Virus record (IMG/VR): IMGVR_UViG_3300030233_000111
Coordinates: 1 to 41,986 of that record
DNA from: a virus
Reading direction: 5' to 3' (one strand)
DNA: 41,986 bases
Every line of letters starts with the position of its first letter. The first letter of the stretch is position 1. Under the pieces are notes generated by a model. The model saw nothing but the letters and a program-made list of their open reading frames with translations, made no database searches and had not been told where the DNA came from. Positions 2,383 to 16,000 of this stretch are shown one piece after another. The position numbers were made by a program, and so were the translations under genes.

Positions 2383-3002
2383 TTTCAGAAGACATCCAAA
2401 AAAACAAAGAGAATTACTGTCCCGGAAAAATATCTCTATCTCATCTTCAATCTTTCTGCAAAAACAAATCCATCTGCCTTGTCGGTAATGCAAAGTCAAT
2501 GCTTGGCAACGGCCGAGGAGAGTGGATAGACTCGCATGACATTGTCTTGCGGATGAATCAGGGATTTCCTTCTGAGGCTCATGCTAAAGATATCGGCCTT
2601 CGCATGGATATTTGGGCCTGCGGGCTTCTTACCCCGCATTACCCAATCCTCTCTTATGTCGATCAGTACGATCCCAAAATCATCACCTGGCTTTCTGCCT
2701 ACTCTAATAAGAATATGCCGCTTCAGATGGCAGAAAAAACCCACACTGCGGACATGGATTTTTTTATTGAGTGCGGTGAGAATTTAAATGGGCACCGGCC
2801 AAGCACTGGCATGCTTCATGTCGAGTTGTTCTCTCGAAAAATCCCTTTCAAAAAATTATCAATTTATGGATTTGATTTTTTCCGCACGCCGGAGTTTTAC
2901 CGGGGGCATGTTGTCACTGCCAAGCACCAGCCAGCAATAGAGAGAGAGCATTTTATGCAGTTAATTAAAAAGAAGAATATAGAATGGACCCAGTCATATT
3001 GA
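2379..3002 (+). CDS. GT29-type sialyltransferase-like protein
   Basis: A 207-residue protein carrying the recognisable GT29 sialylmotifs in order. Motif L is at about residues 33-60 (CLVGNAKS, then IDSHDIVLRMN). Motif S is at about 140-168 (RPSTGML, then IYGFDFF). A motif VS of the form H-x4-E is at about 183-188. GT29 enzymes transfer sialic acid from CMP-sialic acid to glycans. No signal peptide or membrane anchor is present, unlike animal members, so it would act in the cytoplasm. The NeuB-like gene lies about 670 bp downstream, which supports a sialic-acid-type donor. The acceptor is unknown, and a related sugar donor is possible. Confidence 0.75.
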   Translation: MISEDIQKNKENYCPGKISLSHLQSFCKNKSICLVGNAKSMLGNGRGEWIDSHDIVLRMNQGFPSEAHAKDIGLRMDIWACGLLTPHYPILSYVDQYDPKIITWLSAYSNKNMPLQMAEKTHTADMDFFIECGENLNGHRPSTGMLHVELFSRKIPFKKLSIYGFDFFRTPEFYRGHVVTAKHQPAIEREHFMQLIKKKNIEWTQSY

Positions 3003-3060
3003 TTTCGGCTCGGGAAGGACAAAAGAGTGATTGACGTTGATTACGAAGAGGATCTTATAA

Positions 3061-3660
3061 ATGTTTTACTCAGATAAATACAAGTTCGTTTTTTTGCATC
3101 AAAAGAAAAATGCCGGGACATCGATTAAGTCACTGGTTTGCTCAGATATTTACAAAGCCAAAGTTTATCCGGAAAGAAGGCACGTTGCTCTCGACGAAAA
3201 GACTTTTCTAGAGTTCAAGGGGTATCGATTTTTTACTACAATCAGGAATCCTTATGATCGGATTTCCTCTTGGTGGGGGCATCTGGTAAATGCTGCTCAA
3301 AAAAACGGCAGCCATGAAAGGTTCAATAGTCAAAAAATTGTTTCTTTCATGGATAGCATTGAATGGAGTCTTGATAGGTACATTGATCTTTACAGGAAAA
3401 AAACCACAGGTTCTGAGTTTGTGCTTTCGACTTCTCAATCTGATTTTATTTCCGATTTCCCTGTGCGTATATTGAGGTTTGAGGCCGGGATAAATTGCGA
3501 GTGGAAAAGGTTTTGTGTTTTAAATGGCATGCCTTACCATCCGGCTAAAAAAATAAATGAGACACCATCCGGGCTAAAACCAAATTTGACCGAGAATCAA
3601 AAAGAAATTATTTACGATTTTTTTCGTTGTGATTTCGAGAGATTTTGTTATAATAAATAG
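3061..3660 (+). CDS. Sulfotransferase-like protein
   Basis: A 199-residue protein with the two PAPS-binding signatures of carbohydrate sulfotransferases. The 5'-phosphosulfate loop is at about residues 11-22 (FLHQKKNAGTSI). The 3'-phosphate region is at about 59-72 (TTIRNPYDRISSWW). Such enzymes move sulfate from PAPS to hydroxyl or amino groups of sugars. It sits between the GT29-like and NeuB-like genes, which suggests that a glycan made by the cassette is sulfated. No PAPS synthesis genes are present, so PAPS would come from the host. There is no signal peptide. Confidence 0.7.
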   Translation: MFYSDKYKFVFLHQKKNAGTSIKSLVCSDIYKAKVYPERRHVALDEKTFLEFKGYRFFTTIRNPYDRISSWWGHLVNAAQKNGSHERFNSQKIVSFMDSIEWSLDRYIDLYRKKTTGSEFVLSTSQSDFISDFPVRILRFEAGINCEWKRFCVLNGMPYHPAKKINETPSGLKPNLTENQKEIIYDFFRCDFERFCYNK

Positions 3661-3670
3661 AGGGGGAAAA

Positions 3671-4501
3671 ATGGAGACAAAAGTAATAGCTGAGATTGGA
3701 ATAAACCACAATGGGGATGTTGACCTGGCCAAGGAGATGATCCTGATTGCCCGGGCGGCTGGTTGCCAGTATGTCAAGCTCCAAAAAAGAGATCCAGACA
3801 TCTGCGTTCCTGAAAAACAAAAACTTAAGCCGAAGTCGACCCCATGGGGGGAGATGACATATTTAGACTATAAAAAAAAGATTGAGTTTTCGGCAGATGA
3901 ATTATCTGAGCTTGCAGATTATGCAAAAAGTATCGGCATTGAGCTTTTTTGCTCTGTTTGGGATATCGAAAGTGCTCAAGTTTATCTTGATTCAATTGGA
4001 TCGGGCATAGTCAAAATTCCGTCTGCTAAAATAAATGATTTAGACTTGATCACTTATTGCAGAAAGTATTTTGATTTTTTGATCATCAGTACCGGCATGA
4101 GTTACGAGGACGAAATCGAAAGGGCGGTTTCTGCATGCAGTCCTGACGTGATAATGCACACCTGCTCTGCATACCCATCACCGCCGGATCAAATAAATCT
4201 CAATTATATTTTGCATCTCAAAAAAAAGTTTCCTGGGCATGATATTGGCTATTCGGGCCACGAGTACGGGCTTATTCCCACCATCAATGCTGTAGCCATG
4301 GGTGCAAAATGGGTCGAACGTCACATCACAACAGATAGAGAAATGTGGGGAAGCGACCAGGCCGCATCGGTTGAACCACACGGGCTTTTTCGCCTCGTTA
4401 AATATATCCAAGAGACTGAAAAGACACTTGGAGAAGTAGGGCCGAGAAGAGTACTTAAGTGCGAGAGGGAAAAAAGAGATTCCTTAAGGGGTGACGCGTG
4501 A
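3671..4501 (+). CDS. neuB-like: N-acetylneuraminate synthase-like protein lacking the SAF domain
   Basis: NeuB-family TIM-barrel protein, which condenses phosphoenolpyruvate with an N-acetylhexosamine to make a sialic or other nonulosonic acid. Family motifs are visible: AEIGINHNGD near the start, VKLQKRDPD, HTCSAYPSP, GYSGHEYGL and WVERHITTD followed by GSDQAASVEP. The start chosen is the ATG after GGGGGAAAA, giving 276 residues. Typical NeuB is about 340-350 residues with a C-terminal antifreeze-like SAF domain. This protein stops right after the linker (EKRDSLR), so SAF is absent. Its end overlaps the next gene (GTGA). Neither neuA nor neuC accompanies it. Confidence 0.8.
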   Translation: METKVIAEIGINHNGDVDLAKEMILIARAAGCQYVKLQKRDPDICVPEKQKLKPKSTPWGEMTYLDYKKKIEFSADELSELADYAKSIGIELFCSVWDIESAQVYLDSIGSGIVKIPSAKINDLDLITYCRKYFDFLIISTGMSYEDEIERAVSACSPDVIMHTCSAYPSPPDQINLNYILHLKKKFPGHDIGYSGHEYGLIPTINAVAMGAKWVERHITTDREMWGSDQAASVEPHGLFRLVKYIQETEKTLGEVGPRRVLKCEREKRDSLRGDA

Positions 4502-10153: not shown

Positions 10154-10684
10154 CTAATAGTCCTCAGAGCAAGTAATGATTGCTTGTCTTTCGCTAATGC
10201 CGTTAGATATCAATATGCTCTTTTTGTCTATTGATACACTCCCGGAGTCGGCATCCGTGCATTCGGGGATTACGCTTTTGTCGTGAATCACTTCGTCTAC
10301 AATTTTTTGCCAGGAATAGCCCTTAAATTTTTCATGCAGCTCTTCAATTAGTTCCATTTCCAGTCTGTTCAGCTTGCCGAGGAAATTGCCGGGGAGTGTG
10401 ATTTCCACAGAATAATGGTTTGTTTTTAAATATTCGTTCCATGTGTTTTGAGACCCATTCACAACACTACTTCTGGAGTTTTTAATAAAATCATAAACCC
10501 TGGAAAGAACAGGGCCATAATTCGTGCTGTAATAATCGTCTTTTGTGGCTGTGTACCCATATTCTATCAAAAGCTTTCTGTCAAGTAAGTACATTAGCTT
10601 TATGAGTTTTGTGTAGTTGAGCCTGCCTCCGGCTAGTTCCACAAATCTATAGGCAATCTGAGCTGCCTTTTGGGCTCTAACCAT
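10154..10684 (-). CDS. Panacea (DUF4065/SocA-like) domain protein
   Basis: A 176-residue protein with the DUF4065 pattern at its N-terminus: KAAQIAYRFVEL, LNYTKLIKLMYLLDR and DYYSTNYGPVLSRVYDF. The Panacea domain is known as a versatile antitoxin domain and is also found in phages and mobile elements. The gene has a good GGAGG ribosome site. The neighbours are small unrecognised proteins, so it may be half of a toxin-antitoxin pair, a phage antitoxin against host abortive-infection toxins, or a proteolysis adaptor. I cannot choose between these. Confidence 0.75.
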   Translation of the reverse strand: MVRAQKAAQIAYRFVELAGGRLNYTKLIKLMYLLDRKLLIEYGYTATKDDYYSTNYGPVLSRVYDFIKNSRSSVVNGSQNTWNEYLKTNHYSVEITLPGNFLGKLNRLEMELIEELHEKFKGYSWQKIVDEVIHDKSVIPECTDADSGSVSIDKKSILISNGISERQAIITCSEDY

Positions 10685-10975: not shown

Positions 10976-11468
10976 ACTCATTCTCCCATTCATTGTAGTA
11001 GTCTATCACATGGCCGTCAGGATATATCTTTCGCACCAAGGTTCCGTCGATATCATATGCGCAGTAGACCGTTATTTCGGACATGTTTCCATTTTCTTTC
11101 TTTTCGGTGATCTCGTCGTGCCCTAGAGACTCGTGCATTTGCAGTACACCGAATTGGTTATAAATGGCTTTTATTTTGTGTTTATCTTTGTTTTTTTTAT
11201 CTTTAATAAATTCCTGCCAGTCAATGGTGGTGTGAGCTATCTCATTTCTCTCGTGCCGCCCAAAATCCCCACCAGAAATATAGCTGATACCATTACCACA
11301 TTCTTTGATGCAGATTTCCCATCTATCAACTGGCTTAAGTTTAATCTCTTTATCAAAGCCTTCTTTTAGTGGATCACCATCTGACCATCTATCACATTCA
11401 AGATAATCACATGCATCGCTAAAATCTTGATATGATTTTAAGTTGTTAATTGCTATTTGTTTTTTCAT
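10947..11468 (-). CDS. Hypothetical protein
   Basis: A 173-residue acidic soluble protein. The ATG used overlaps the stop of the upstream gene (ATGA) and follows GGGAGA. A longer upstream frame exists but lacks a better ribosome site. The last 44 residues (from SEITVYCAYDIDGTLV) look like a separate small domain. No family was recognised. It lies outside the cassette-like units. Confidence 0.5.
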   Translation of the reverse strand: MKKQIAINNLKSYQDFSDACDYLECDRWSDGDPLKEGFDKEIKLKPVDRWEICIKECGNGISYISGGDFGRHERNEIAHTTIDWQEFIKDKKNKDKHKIKAIYNQFGVLQMHESLGHDEITEKKENGNMSEITVYCAYDIDGTLVRKIYPDGHVIDYYNEWENEYEKTQKKQP

Positions 11469-11776
11469 GATGTCTCCCTTGGCGCAGGACGCGCACATTT
11501 TCTTGGGTTGTCGGATTGTTTTGGTTTTTCTCTTCCCCATGCATCAATAAATGCAACCTCTTGCCAATCAGGATCACACTCGGTATCATTTATATCCCAT
11601 TCAAATGTTGATGCCTGTTCTATAATCCAACCGTCACGGTCGGAATCATATTTAATTCTAATTGAATTTGCTGCCCTTGTGTGGCAGATTCCTATTTCAA
11701 GTGTTGATTGTTTTTCTTTATCGTATATCTCTGGGTACATCCAATCAATTCTTTCATTTCCTGTTATTTCTATCAA
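11465..11776 (-). CDS. Hypothetical protein adjoining the cassette array
   Basis: A 103-residue protein. The TTG start is chosen because AAGGAG lies six bases before it; upstream ATG codons fall inside the attC-like repeat. It contains two Trp-rich acidic patches (RDGWIIEQ, CDPDWQEV). It is the first gene beyond the last attC-like repeat and has no such repeat at its own 3' end, so it is probably resident phage DNA, or a last cassette that has lost its site. Confidence 0.5.
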   Translation of the reverse strand: MIEITGNERIDWMYPEIYDKEKQSTLEIGICHTRAANSIRIKYDSDRDGWIIEQASTFEWDINDTECDPDWQEVAFIDAWGREKPKQSDNPRKCARPAPRETS

Positions 11777-11804
11777 TTTAATCTCCTTAAAACCAAAATG
11801 TCCG

Positions 11805-11875
11805 ACAACGTTTGCGATTATGCGAAGTGCCGTAGGCATTTGGGAGAGCGTAGCGAACCACATAGTCGCCGTTGT
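11805..11875 (-). other. attC-like site A (after the Dam-type gene)
   Basis: Outer arms ACAACG (11805-11810) and CGTTGT (11870-11875), and inner arms GCGATTATG (11814-11822) and CATAGTCGC (11861-11869), are separated by an unpaired TTT on one side only. The 3' end of the minus-strand methyltransferase gene lies within it, as in integron cassettes where the recombination site closes the cassette. The outer boxes keep AAC/GTT but depart from the full RYYYAAC/GTTRRRY consensus. Confidence 0.6.
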
Positions 11876-12636
11876 GTGATGTCAAGTGATGAATAAACAC
11901 TGTTCGATATTACTAATACCTCTTTTGATTTTTTGTCTTTACCCATCCCGTAACTCCATTTGGGTATGTAATAATAATGGTTTTTGTATAACTCAACTAT
12001 TTCTGCTATATTATTATAAGACAATACAAAGCCGTTCCTCTTGTTTAGTTTTTCGGCTAATTTAATATGATTAAAGCCTTTGTGTGCTTTTCCCTTGTTC
12101 CCATATAGATAGTTTTTAATGATGTATGGTGGGTCACAATACGCAAAACCGCTATAGCATAGCGAATGCATAAAATCTTGCTCATGAACTGGTATAGACA
12201 AATCAAACCTCTTTAGTTTTGACAAGATACTTTCCGTGAATCTTGGATGGTTTGGCGACATTCCACCATTCATTGTACTCCCTGAAAAACTACACCTATT
12301 CAATACAAAAAACATAGCTCCTTGCTTAATCTTATCAGCCTCCACCATACATGATTTTTGTAAAGAATAGAACATATCTTTACTTAATGGATAGTATTTT
12401 ATTACTTCTCTATATAGTTCTTCTCGGCTATTTTTTAACGCCGACCAAAAGGACACCAAGGGTTTGAATATATCAAACCCGACCACTTCCATTCCTTGCT
12501 GATTTAAATACAATTCAAAACTACCGCCTCCGAAAAACGGGGAAATCACTTTTTTTGTATCTTTAGGGATGAATAAAGACAACTCTTTTATCGCTCTGGA
12601 CTTCCCTCCTGGGTATCTTAATATCGAATAATTCAT
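11818..12636 (-). CDS. D12-class (Dam-like) adenine DNA methyltransferase in a cassette-like unit
   Basis: A 272-residue N6-adenine methyltransferase. It starts with the SAM-binding YPGGKSRA and has FFGGGSFEL at about residue 36-44 and the catalytic DPPY motif at about residue 170. The ATG chosen precedes YSILRYPGGK; an upstream ATG is less likely. Target specificity is unknown. The phage may methylate its DNA against host restriction. It fills an 852-bp unit bounded by attC-like sites, and its AT-rich base use differs from the structural genes, both suggesting acquisition. Confidence 0.85.
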   Translation of the reverse strand: MNYSILRYPGGKSRAIKELSLFIPKDTKKVISPFFGGGSFELYLNQQGMEVVGFDIFKPLVSFWSALKNSREELYREVIKYYPLSKDMFYSLQKSCMVEADKIKQGAMFFVLNRCSFSGSTMNGGMSPNHPRFTESILSKLKRFDLSIPVHEQDFMHSLCYSGFAYCDPPYIIKNYLYGNKGKAHKGFNHIKLAEKLNKRNGFVLSYNNIAEIVELYKNHYYYIPKWSYGMGKDKKSKEVLVISNSVYSSLDITQRRLCGSLRSPKCLRHFA

Positions 12637-12656
12637 TTTACCCCACTTTATTTCAC

Positions 12657-12739
12657 ACAACGTTTGCGGTTATCAGAAGTCCGATTTATCAGATTTGGGA
12701 GAGGATGACTTGTCATCCGAACCTGATAAACTCTGTTGT
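12657..12739 (-). other. attC-like site B (after the HNH gene)
   Basis: Outer arms ACAAC (in 12657-12662) and GTTGT (in 12734-12739), and inner arms GCGGTTATCAG (12666-12676) and CTGATAAACTC (12723-12733), pair imperfectly. A perfect 7-bp inner hairpin, GGATGAC/GTCATCC, at 12703-12718 resembles a variable terminal structure. The HNH gene stop lies inside the repeat. Confidence 0.55.
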
Positions 12740-13050
12740 ACGATGGGAAACCGTAAAATCCCAAGCTTTTTATCTCGTGTATATCTTGCGTTTTGGGCGT
12801 GATGTTTTGCATCGTAGGTTAAATGGCACCTTTGACATAATGCCTTTAAGTTTTTGTCATCATTGTTTTGCGGGTTATGCTCAAGATGTGCTACTGTTAG
12901 AATCACTTTACTGCCAGTATCAGGATGTGGTTCATAATTTTCAGCACCGCAAAACTCACATTTATTCCCAGCACGCTCAAAACGTATTCTTTTAGATATG
13001 TTTTTCCAGTTTTTATGATACAGCTTTTGTTTATCTTTACTTATAGGCAT
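12673..13050 (-). CDS. HNH endonuclease in a cassette-like unit
   Basis: A 125-residue protein with a zinc-binding HNH layout: CEFCG at about residues 32-36, AHLEHNPQNND in the middle and LCQRCH at about 70-75. HNH proteins nick or cut DNA in restriction, packaging or homing. The C-terminus is a Ser/Lys-rich tail coded inside the attC-like repeat. AGGAG precedes the ATG and lies just inside the cassette boundary, as expected for a promoterless cassette gene. Confidence 0.8.
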   Translation of the reverse strand: MPISKDKQKLYHKNWKNISKRIRFERAGNKCEFCGAENYEPHPDTGSKVILTVAHLEHNPQNNDDKNLKALCQRCHLTYDAKHHAQNARYTRDKKLGILRFPIVQQSLSGSDDKSSSPKSDKSDF

Positions 13051-13066
13051 TTAGTGCTCCTTTCGT

Positions 13067-13222
13067 ACAACGTTTGCGACTATGAGAAGTTTCCGAGTTT
13101 TTTTATTGCTTCGTATGTCTTCTCTATTCCGATTGGTGATGTAAAATAGGAGTTAACATCAACTAATTTTTTAACCTCATCTAAACTCGGCAATTTGGGC
13201 GCAGACTCATAGTCGCTGTTGT
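13067..13222 (-). other. attC-like site C (long form)
   Basis: Outer arms ACAAC (in 13067-13072) and GTTGT (in 13217-13222), with perfect 11-bp inner arms GCGACTATGAG (13076-13086) and CTCATAGTCGC (13206-13216). The spacers are unequal (four bases against one). The 119-base interior codes for the end of the unit's own gene. The right arm shares 19 identical bases with site D (ATAGTCGCTGTTGTCGGAT). Confidence 0.65.
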
Positions 13223-13382
13223 CGGATGTAGGAGTTTTAACAATCTCTGAACCAACAACATGTCTACCGCCATTCTTCATTTTTGACTCAAGGTCAGCAT
13301 GTTCTATGTCAACCGTTTCATAAAATACTGACCACTCATCCTGTGAAACTTGAAAACTACTTTTTACAATCAATCTAATCAT
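13080..13382 (-). CDS. Hypothetical protein in a cassette-like unit
   Basis: A 100-residue protein of unknown family with a good AGGAG ribosome site. The N-terminal half has strand-like segments (IRLIVKSSF, EWSVFYETVDIEH) and the C-terminal half is helical and charged. About half of it is coded inside the long attC-like repeat, an unusual overlap. It occupies a 334-bp unit between sites C and D. Confidence 0.55.
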   Translation of the reverse strand: MIRLIVKSSFQVSQDEWSVFYETVDIEHADLESKMKNGGRHVVGSEIVKTPTSDNSDYESAPKLPSLDEVKKLVDVNSYFTSPIGIEKTYEAIKKLGNFS

Positions 13383-13400
13383 TTAAAACTCCTATCTCTG

Positions 13401-13462
13401 ACAACGTCCGCGACTATCTGACGTTTTAATGTCCCGAAGGGCTTGCAGATAGTCGCTGTTGT
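13401..13462 (-). other. attC-like site D (after the Lar-like gene)
   Basis: Outer arms ACAAC/GTTGT (extendable to GACAAC/GTTGTC) and perfect 11-bp inner arms GCGACTATCTG (13410-13420) and CAGATAGTCGC (13446-13456), with spacers of four bases and one base. At 62 bp it is close to the classic short attC size. It closes the first unit of the array and is the clearest of the four. Confidence 0.65.
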
Positions 13463-13653
13463 CGGATCGTTTTTAGTTTTTTCCTAATGAGGTAGTTCCA
13501 TGCTCTCATAGCATGGTTACCGTTCCAGTATGAAAGTGTAGAAAAGTCACATTCAGGACAATAAATAATGCTAAGTTCATCTGGGTACGCTCCCGAATCA
13601 TCGTATGGATAATGCTTTGGTGTAGCGCCGCATGTACACTTTCTCAGCTTCAT
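13426..13653 (-). CDS. Lar-like restriction alleviation / zinc-ribbon protein
   Basis: A 75-residue protein with a two-knuckle zinc ribbon (CTCG near residue 7-10 and CPECDF at about 32-37), followed by HAMRAWNYL. This matches the Lar-family pattern in which the second knuckle is followed by an 'A..AWN' motif. Lar proteins of lambdoid phages modulate type I restriction. It is the first gene of the cassette-like array and its 3' end lies within site D. Confidence 0.65.
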   Translation of the reverse strand: MKLRKCTCGATPKHYPYDDSGAYPDELSIIYCPECDFSTLSYWNGNHAMRAWNYLIRKKLKTIRQQRLSASPSGH

Positions 13654-13674
13654 AATATCCCCTTAATCGACTAT

Positions 13675-15052: not shown

Positions 15053-16000
15053 ATGTCAAAAATTGAAGAAAAATTGCCGGTTCTTTTTAGTGGTCAATTT
15101 CAGGCCGACCTAAAAATGTCTTTACCTGATGGATCGAATGTAAAAAAATATATTGCCGGGGTTAAAAACGCAATCATTATGGCGGCAACCAATGGAAATA
15201 CCCTTCTGCTCTCATCCGATCCGAATTCTTTAGCCAACGCAATATTGTCTAGTGCCGCACTGGGTATGCCTATTGACGCTAATGGGCACGGATATCTTGT
15301 CCCTTTCCGCAATAATAAAACCAATAAGGTGATGGCCCAATTTGTGCCTGGCTATAAGGGGTATGTCCGCAAGATTCAAGAGGCCGGGATCATACCGTCT
15401 GTCGGACTGGTTTATGAGGGGGATCATTTCGAGGTTTACGCCGGCACCGAAAACAGGGTCGATCATCGTCCGGATTGGGACGGTGATAATTATGGCCGGC
15501 CGGAAAAAATCAAGGCTGCATACTGCATCATCAATTATCCCAATGGAATGAAAGATGTCGAAATCATGAAGCGTTCTGAAATCGACGACATTAAAAAGTC
15601 TGCCAAGCAGAAGACCATCTGGTCGGCACACTATGGCGAAATGGCAAAAAAAACCGTGCTCAGAAGGGCAGCAAAGTGGGTCCAGGCTGAATCAATGCTA
15701 ACACTGACTCAGTATGACGACATGCAGAGCAGTGGCCGCCTCACTTATATTCAGAAGGGAGACATCATCGACGGCGGTGCAGCGGAGGACAGCTCAGAGG
15801 CAGTCAAAGGAGAAGACCTTAAGGAGGCGTATCAATCCATCGTCAAGCATGTAAACGGGTCAAAAAATCGAGAAGATGAGATGAGGCGCGTAATTGATAT
15901 ATGCGTCAGCAGCTATGGTAAAAAACTCCACGAACTTAATTATGAGCAGCTACTGACGGTAAAGAAATCACTCGGAATCAAAAATGAAGCCAAAGCTTAA
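15053..16000 (+). CDS. recT: RecT-family single-strand annealing recombinase
   Basis: A 315-residue RecT/Red-beta-type protein that anneals complementary DNA strands in phage recombination. Family features include SSAALGMPIDANGHGYLVPF, QFVPGYKGYVRKI, a VYEGDHFEV segment and WSAHYGEMAKKTVLRRAAKW. The C-terminal tail after about residue 240 is variable, as usual. It is paired with the exonuclease gene, which overlaps its end by 17 bases, forming a classic annealase-exonuclease module. Confidence 0.93.
   Translation: MSKIEEKLPVLFSGQFQADLKMSLPDGSNVKKYIAGVKNAIIMAATNGNTLLLSSDPNSLANAILSSAALGMPIDANGHGYLVPFRNNKTNKVMAQFVPGYKGYVRKIQEAGIIPSVGLVYEGDHFEVYAGTENRVDHRPDWDGDNYGRPEKIKAAYCIINYPNGMKDVEIMKRSEIDDIKKSAKQKTIWSAHYGEMAKKTVLRRAAKWVQAESMLTLTQYDDMQSSGRLTYIQKGDIIDGGAAEDSSEAVKGEDLKEAYQSIVKHVNGSKNREDEMRRVIDICVSSYGKKLHELNYEQLLTVKKSLGIKNEAKA

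Follow-up and report, generated by a model that had tools for sequence, protein, structure and literature searches.

A probable CALIN with a distinct attC subfamily in a tailed-phage genome, and its cellular relatives in Patescibacteria

The cassette array of the phage

The locus described here raises the question of how a phage genome that encodes no integron integrase comes to carry a row of genes laid out like integron cassettes, and which enzyme may have placed them there. The window, that is, the whole stretch of 41,986 nucleotides that was analysed (positions 1-41,986 of IMG/VR record IMGVR_UViG_3300030233_000111, G000), is a tailed-phage genome with RecT, an O-like initiator, TerL, a portal, a major head protein and a tape measure; the array is read on its minus strand. 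The integron integrase profile TIGR02249 found no match in the window, which agrees with the earlier note on this DNA, and the intI gene and adjacent attI that a complete integron has beside its array are not present. The same profile gave one weak partial match only (G008, E=1e-5) in nine other viral records.

The earlier note had described four adjacent minus-strand units, each with an ORF whose 3' end lies within an imperfect inverted repeat, and reading of the sequence bears this out. The spacing from GTT to GTT is 334, 410 and 852 bp, exactly the lengths claimed, a ribosome-binding-like sequence follows each unit boundary as had been stated, and partial units stand at both ends of the array. 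The form common to the four sites (A to D in Table 1) is ACAAC-N-L''...L'-RRAC-GTTGT. The inner arms are present, and three of the four sites have intact L arms; the degeneracy that had been assigned to a site B is found in site C, presumably the site that was meant. The variable interior of site B is coding and supplies the C-terminus of the 100-aa ORF of cassette 2. A C-terminal protein tail encoded inside a site (window 13067-13222) is shared with another phage (L066:5575-5925, L066/G007; 51% over 49 aa).

Beyond the four sites, both edges of the array hold remnants. Unit 5 starts with GTTGTCGGA and ends with TCCGACAAC, and an inverted repeat (I6) has its arms at 11507-11527 and 11789-11809. 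Since the start of unit 5 matches the lone R'' at the right edge (11507-11515), and a decayed arm lies at the other edge, the array extends beyond the interval that was originally delimited.

Table 1. Features of the window array and of integron-like loci in Patescibacteria (positions are those of the window unless a locus is named).
Feature	Position	Strand	Details
RecT-like ssDNA-annealing protein	15053-16000	(+)	phage backbone, adjoins array; phrog_148 E=8e-46
L' arm remnant, array left edge	13668-13674	(-)	ATAGTCG, no GTT; from sequence
Cassette 1, partial	13406-13674	(-)	decayed 5' boundary; ORF 13426-13653, 75-aa Lar-like zinc ribbon
attC-like site A (R''-L''-L'-R')	13401-13462	(-)	62 nt; R2 62.7 bits
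Cassette 2, whole	13072-13405	(-)	334 bp; ORF 13080-13382, 100 aa, unknown; start/end CAG/CGG (near match)
attC-like site B	13067-13222	(-)	156 nt, long variable terminal structure; R2 60.1 bits
Cassette 3, whole	12662-13071	(-)	410 bp; ORF 12673-13050, HNH endonuclease; start/end ACG/ACG identical
attC-like site C	12657-12739	(-)	83 nt, degenerate L box (8/10 pairs); R2 57.8 bits
Cassette 4, whole	11810-12661	(-)	852 bp; ORF 11818-12636, D12 N6-adenine DNA methyltransferase; start/end GTG/GTG identical
attC-like site D	11805-11875	(-)	71 nt; R2 52.5 bits
Cassette 5	11507-11809	(-)	own attC truncated after R''; starts GTTGTCGGACATT; ORF 11465-11776 (TTG start), unknown
Lone R'', array right edge	11507-11515	(-)	TCCGACAAC; complementary to cassette 5 start
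Patescibacterial recombinase and array	L060:2945-3772, sites to 129
Further integron-like Patescibacterial platforms	L101, L102, L103, L106, L108, L109, L114, L115, L117, L118

A CALIN calls for at least two close attC-type sites on one strand, and here four lie within 1.7 kb; its units should also be circularisable, and in the phage units the bases at start and end match far more often than expected (see below). To recognize such sites, the earlier note had proposed scoring by a covariance model, single-strand folding and a search for the same sites beside other genes. A covariance model (R2) that was trained without any window sequence scored every window site, at 52-63 bits (E 8e-15 to 5e-12). 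Over the 42-kb window R2 gave no further significant match, the sole extra being the mirror strand of site D (E=0.05). Folding proved less telling: against shuffled sequences only site A has a clearly lower energy (z -2.8), the other sites were uninformative and the input for site B was truncated. The word CGCAAACGTTGT by itself is not more frequent than chance, and with energies that are mostly unremarkable the claim therefore required relatives. No Rfam family matched between 9 and 15 kb of the window. The support for the window sites is covariation and recurrence, rather than folding energy.

The textbook consensus for R' is GTTRRRY. The R' of the window sites reads GTTGTNN, which departs from it at position 5, although in Patescibacteria this model also detects sites of the GTTAGCY/GTTAGGC kind (sibling sites GTTAGCT, GTTAGGC and GTTAGCC); only GTT was counted as the invariant part of R'. 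Class 1 and sedentary chromosomal attC sites resemble those of the window in their one-ORF units, the palindrome R''-L''-L'-R', the AAC/GTT pair, joining at G^TT and a variable terminal structure, whereas their R' sequence differs. R2 detected none of the class 1 attCs, which indicates that the window sites are a distinct subfamily.

Methyltransferase and nuclease cassettes had been claimed for the array, and both are matched: the methyltransferase of cassette 4 by PF02086 (E=1e-21) and phrog_56 (E=1e-44), and the HNH endonuclease of cassette 3 by phrog_1571 (E=3e-29). The 75-aa protein of cassette 1, with a CxC...CxxC...WN pattern, is a weak match to phrog_6795, Lar-like restriction alleviation (E=0.022). 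Judged from these protein families and from the phage setting, the cargo is likely to serve counter-restriction. A SocA/Panacea-domain antitoxin-like protein (PF13274, E=3e-17) is encoded close to the array at 10154-10684 (-).

A phage CALIN as such is a known kind of element. CALINs with methyltransferase cargo have been reported in phages, and IntI1 recombined five of the six sites tested (Qi et al. 2023, PMC9892861). Like the window, these are attC arrays without an integrase in tailed phages that carry methyltransferases. The window subfamily differs from them in its GTTGTNN, in a short, fixed asymmetric spacer (1 versus 4 nt), in an L box without an extra-helical base, and in being common to about a dozen unrelated viral records, with none in GenBank phages by DNA similarity.

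A site family in unrelated viral records

In IMG/VR, 39 loci matched a site pattern, a number near a rough chance estimate, with a subset that had several complete palindromes. Only loci with several sites or one complete palindrome were kept from this first scan, and further loci were added through more specific gapped patterns. A Wenyingzhuangia locus (L043) was dropped as a chance match. The outcome is that some eleven further viral records contain this site family, each time next to other genes, so that the recurrence that had been proposed as a test is indeed found in unrelated phages. These records are metagenomic contigs that were called viral on IMG/VR and hallmark genes. Structural genes of tailed phages (terminase, portal, sheath or tape measure), from different families, are present in eight or more of them; over the carriers as a whole the terminases fall into two families, and further genes include portals, tail sheaths, a tape measure and a DNA polymerase. 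Compared with the window phage, they are unrelated or remotely similar. The GenBank phage collection gave no match to the window by DNA similarity, and searches of the viral contigs with the left-flank protein, with RecT and with TerL found no relatives; gain or loss of a single cassette is seen in no close relative.

Alignment of 31 sites showed that AAC and GTT are invariant in all of them. In total, 95.8% of cells are paired and 75 are double-changed, against 21 in shuffles; compensatory double changes occur in nine of the 11 L-box pairs, and shifting the partner along the alignment abolishes the signal. It is thus an attC architecture, R''-L''-L'-R', in which structure is conserved rather than sequence. 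The cargo varies from phage to phage, and where their cassettes are homologous, this lies mostly in the attC sites. Methyltransferase-like cassettes occur in several phage records, as identified partly by eye from DPPY/DPPW-type motifs.

Two further observations were made among these records. Long inter-site intervals at L065:1492-3520 (+) and L069:8365-9905 (+) hold ORFs that by eye are lytic transglycosylase-like and DnaB-like, which suggests that sites may flank backbone genes too. In another record, two sites 1.3 kb apart (L064:128-222 and 1472-1566) are 98.7% identical over 79 nt and have different ORFs beside them; this sequence likeness suggests a recent site duplication or the capture of sibling cassettes.

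Bases that lie outside R' in an integron array are part of the following cassette, and a cassette's own R' and R'' are paired while it is circular. The start and end bases should therefore match within a unit and not across one site. This is what was found in the phages: start and end match exactly in 19 of 34 units, against 7.0 expected (p<2e-5), while the bases that flank one site match in 5 of 46 only. A first version of this test, which included three units from Kerfeldbacteria, gave 12 of 25 against 4.2 expected (p=2e-4). In the window, cassettes 3 and 4 match exactly and cassette 2 nearly so. A match within units but not within sites is the signature of cassettes that were cut at G^TT and circularised. 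Together with the covariance scores and the recurrence beside different genes, this upholds the earlier reading of the organisation as integron cassettes with attC sites.

Patescibacterial arrays and their recombinase

Patescibacteria are tiny, mostly uncultured bacteria. When 84,980 genomes were scanned with an exact-gap pattern, four loci came up; the sites are clear in three of them, from Candidatus Kerfeldbacteria, Candidatus Falkowbacteria and a Calditrichaeota MAG. With model R1 the site family was found in 55 of 380 Patescibacterial genomes (roughly one in seven), many times as same-strand arrays. In the controls only isolated single sites were seen, in 4 of 40 Calditrichota genomes (one Calditrichota genome has two, on different contigs) and in 6 of 148 Bacteroidota genomes. 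Examples of such isolated sites outside arrays in these two phyla are L216 (G518:C23), L215 (G002:C35) and L217 (G414:C156). Among the phyla compared, multi-site same-strand arrays of the family in cells were seen only in Patescibacteria. Start and end bases match in 36 of 62 Patescibacterial units (4.4 expected), and in 4 of 99 comparisons within sites.

A tyrosine recombinase of 270-290 aa with conserved R, K, H, R, H and Y (alignment A3) lies beside these arrays. Of the 380 genomes, 52 encode it, and in 36 it occurs together with sites, where 7.5 are expected (Fisher 3e-24). Where recombinase and sites share one contig, the gene is divergent in 25 of 25 cases, at 118-2754 bp from the first site. 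On the contig from Kerfeldbacteria (L060, recombinase at 2945-3772) the first cassette begins with GTTATATGCC and ends with GGCATATAAC, which marks a putative attI near position 2850.

The additional IntI-specific domain near patch III is missing in all 11 aligned recombinases, and alignment with IntI4 (2a3v) gives two matching blocks around a gap, with 20 versus 63 residues. Five recombinases scored 187-223 bits with TIGR02249, for which the cut-off is 265, and no canonical IntI above this curated cut-off was found in the 380 Patescibacterial genomes. One 321-aa frame (G155:C5:2411-3307) matches the full IntI profile at 235 bits (cut-off 265) and is possibly an IntI-like enzyme with the domain.

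Archaeal integrons were reported to have the IntI-specific domain, which is cited there as necessary (Ghaly et al. 2022, PMC9668308). The Patescibacterial arrays resemble the complete integrons of Archaea and bacteria in having a divergent tyrosine recombinase beside the first cassette, whereas their recombinase lacks the domain, unlike the reported archaeal and bacterial IntIs. In its size of about 275 aa and the missing IntI insert it resembles enzymes of the XerA/XerC type (PDB 4a8e, 5hxy), of which 4a8e is the best sequence match. It differs from Xer in adjoining attC arrays, and an AlphaFold2 model (pLDDT 86, pTM 0.65) has 2a3v as its best PDB match, ahead of XerA, which would place the predicted fold nearer to IntI. 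The open-access literature (preprints and subscription papers aside) yielded no account of Patescibacteria/CPR integrons and none of an integron integrase without the domain. The Patescibacterial arrays are apparently an undescribed integron type, and they are the nearest cellular homes found for the site family.

Origin of the phage cassettes

It is very probable that the window array is a CALIN in a tailed-phage genome, with exchangeable counter-defence genes on cassettes that were inserted by an integrase acting in trans. Each cassette would consist of one ORF and an attC-type site, with no promoter of its own assumed, and would once have been a circle with its own R' and R'' arms paired. 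The host, or an earlier cellular integron, would have provided in trans a tyrosine recombinase of the integron type to cut the folded single strand and insert the cassettes, which may then be transcribed from an upstream phage promoter. The benefit to the phage would lie in counter-defence or counter-restriction genes that can be exchanged.

The hairpins could instead be transcription terminators, RNA stability elements or a REP-like palindromic repeat with no part in recombination. Their place at the 3' ends of ORFs and the conserved strand folding would fit such a role. The terminator reading was nevertheless rejected, as no T-run follows any site and no terminator-like match coincides with one. 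The wider reading is highly improbable as well: Rfam has no match, conservation lies in the outer arms and GTT, the match of start and end bases belongs to the unit between two hairpins and not to the hairpin, and the sibling arrays adjoin a divergent tyrosine recombinase in 25 of 25 contigs that have both. A more substantial alternative, which still appears unlikely, is that a dead piece of a bacterial integron brought the cassettes in a single time, and that since then they have been passed on, or reshuffled through homologous or annealing recombination alone, with RecT acting on the repeated arms; integrase action would then have taken place elsewhere and would no longer matter. A RecT-like annealing protein does adjoin the array, the left boundary is decayed and the last attC truncated, the phage has no integrase, and inter-phage cassette homology lies mostly within attC repeats. 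However, two of the three whole window units keep identical start and end bases, most of the L arms are intact, and the subfamily recurs with different cargo in about eleven unrelated records, which argues for continuing capture from a common pool.

Even with the array taken as a CALIN fed in trans, the source of the integrase has to be weighed. The host may have a canonical IntI, in which case the phage would have only the attC subfamily in common with Patescibacteria and the domain-less integrase would be irrelevant to it; this falls just short of evenly balanced. The TerL of the window is most like those of phages of Lactococcus, Enterococcus, Leptospira biflexa and Methylophilales (the nearest annotated relatives), and a search of 287 Patescibacterial genomes did not find its family, so that a Patescibacterial host for the window phage is not supported. 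Genomes of Calditrichota and Bacteroidota also contain single family sites, and a canonical IntI is encoded in one of the Calditrichota; against this, arrays of several same-strand sites were seen only in Patescibacteria. Matches to the domain-less integrase in viral contigs reached 43% identity at best, and no family site was found at the loci examined (L129-L139, L146, L158, L175). Given the TerL evidence and the single sites elsewhere, the domain-less integrase can be named as a candidate partner of the window phage but not as a demonstrated one. The broader proposal, that Patescibacteria own an integron type with a domain-less integrase and that a cassette pool with the same attC is drawn on by unrelated integrase-less phages, which swap counter-defence genes via the host integrase, is put forward as tentative and is on the whole somewhat doubtful.

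To date, phage CALINs were scattered cases, and here one attC subfamily joins about a dozen unrelated viral records. Integron platforms are present in roughly one in seven of the sampled Patescibacteria, with an integrase that lacks a domain held necessary for integron recombination. IntegronFinder demands the IntI-specific domain, and platforms without it would therefore be scored as CALINs or missed. What appears to be a single cassette pool with recurrent DNA methyltransferases suggests that integron recombination may be a route by which phages change their anti-restriction genes.
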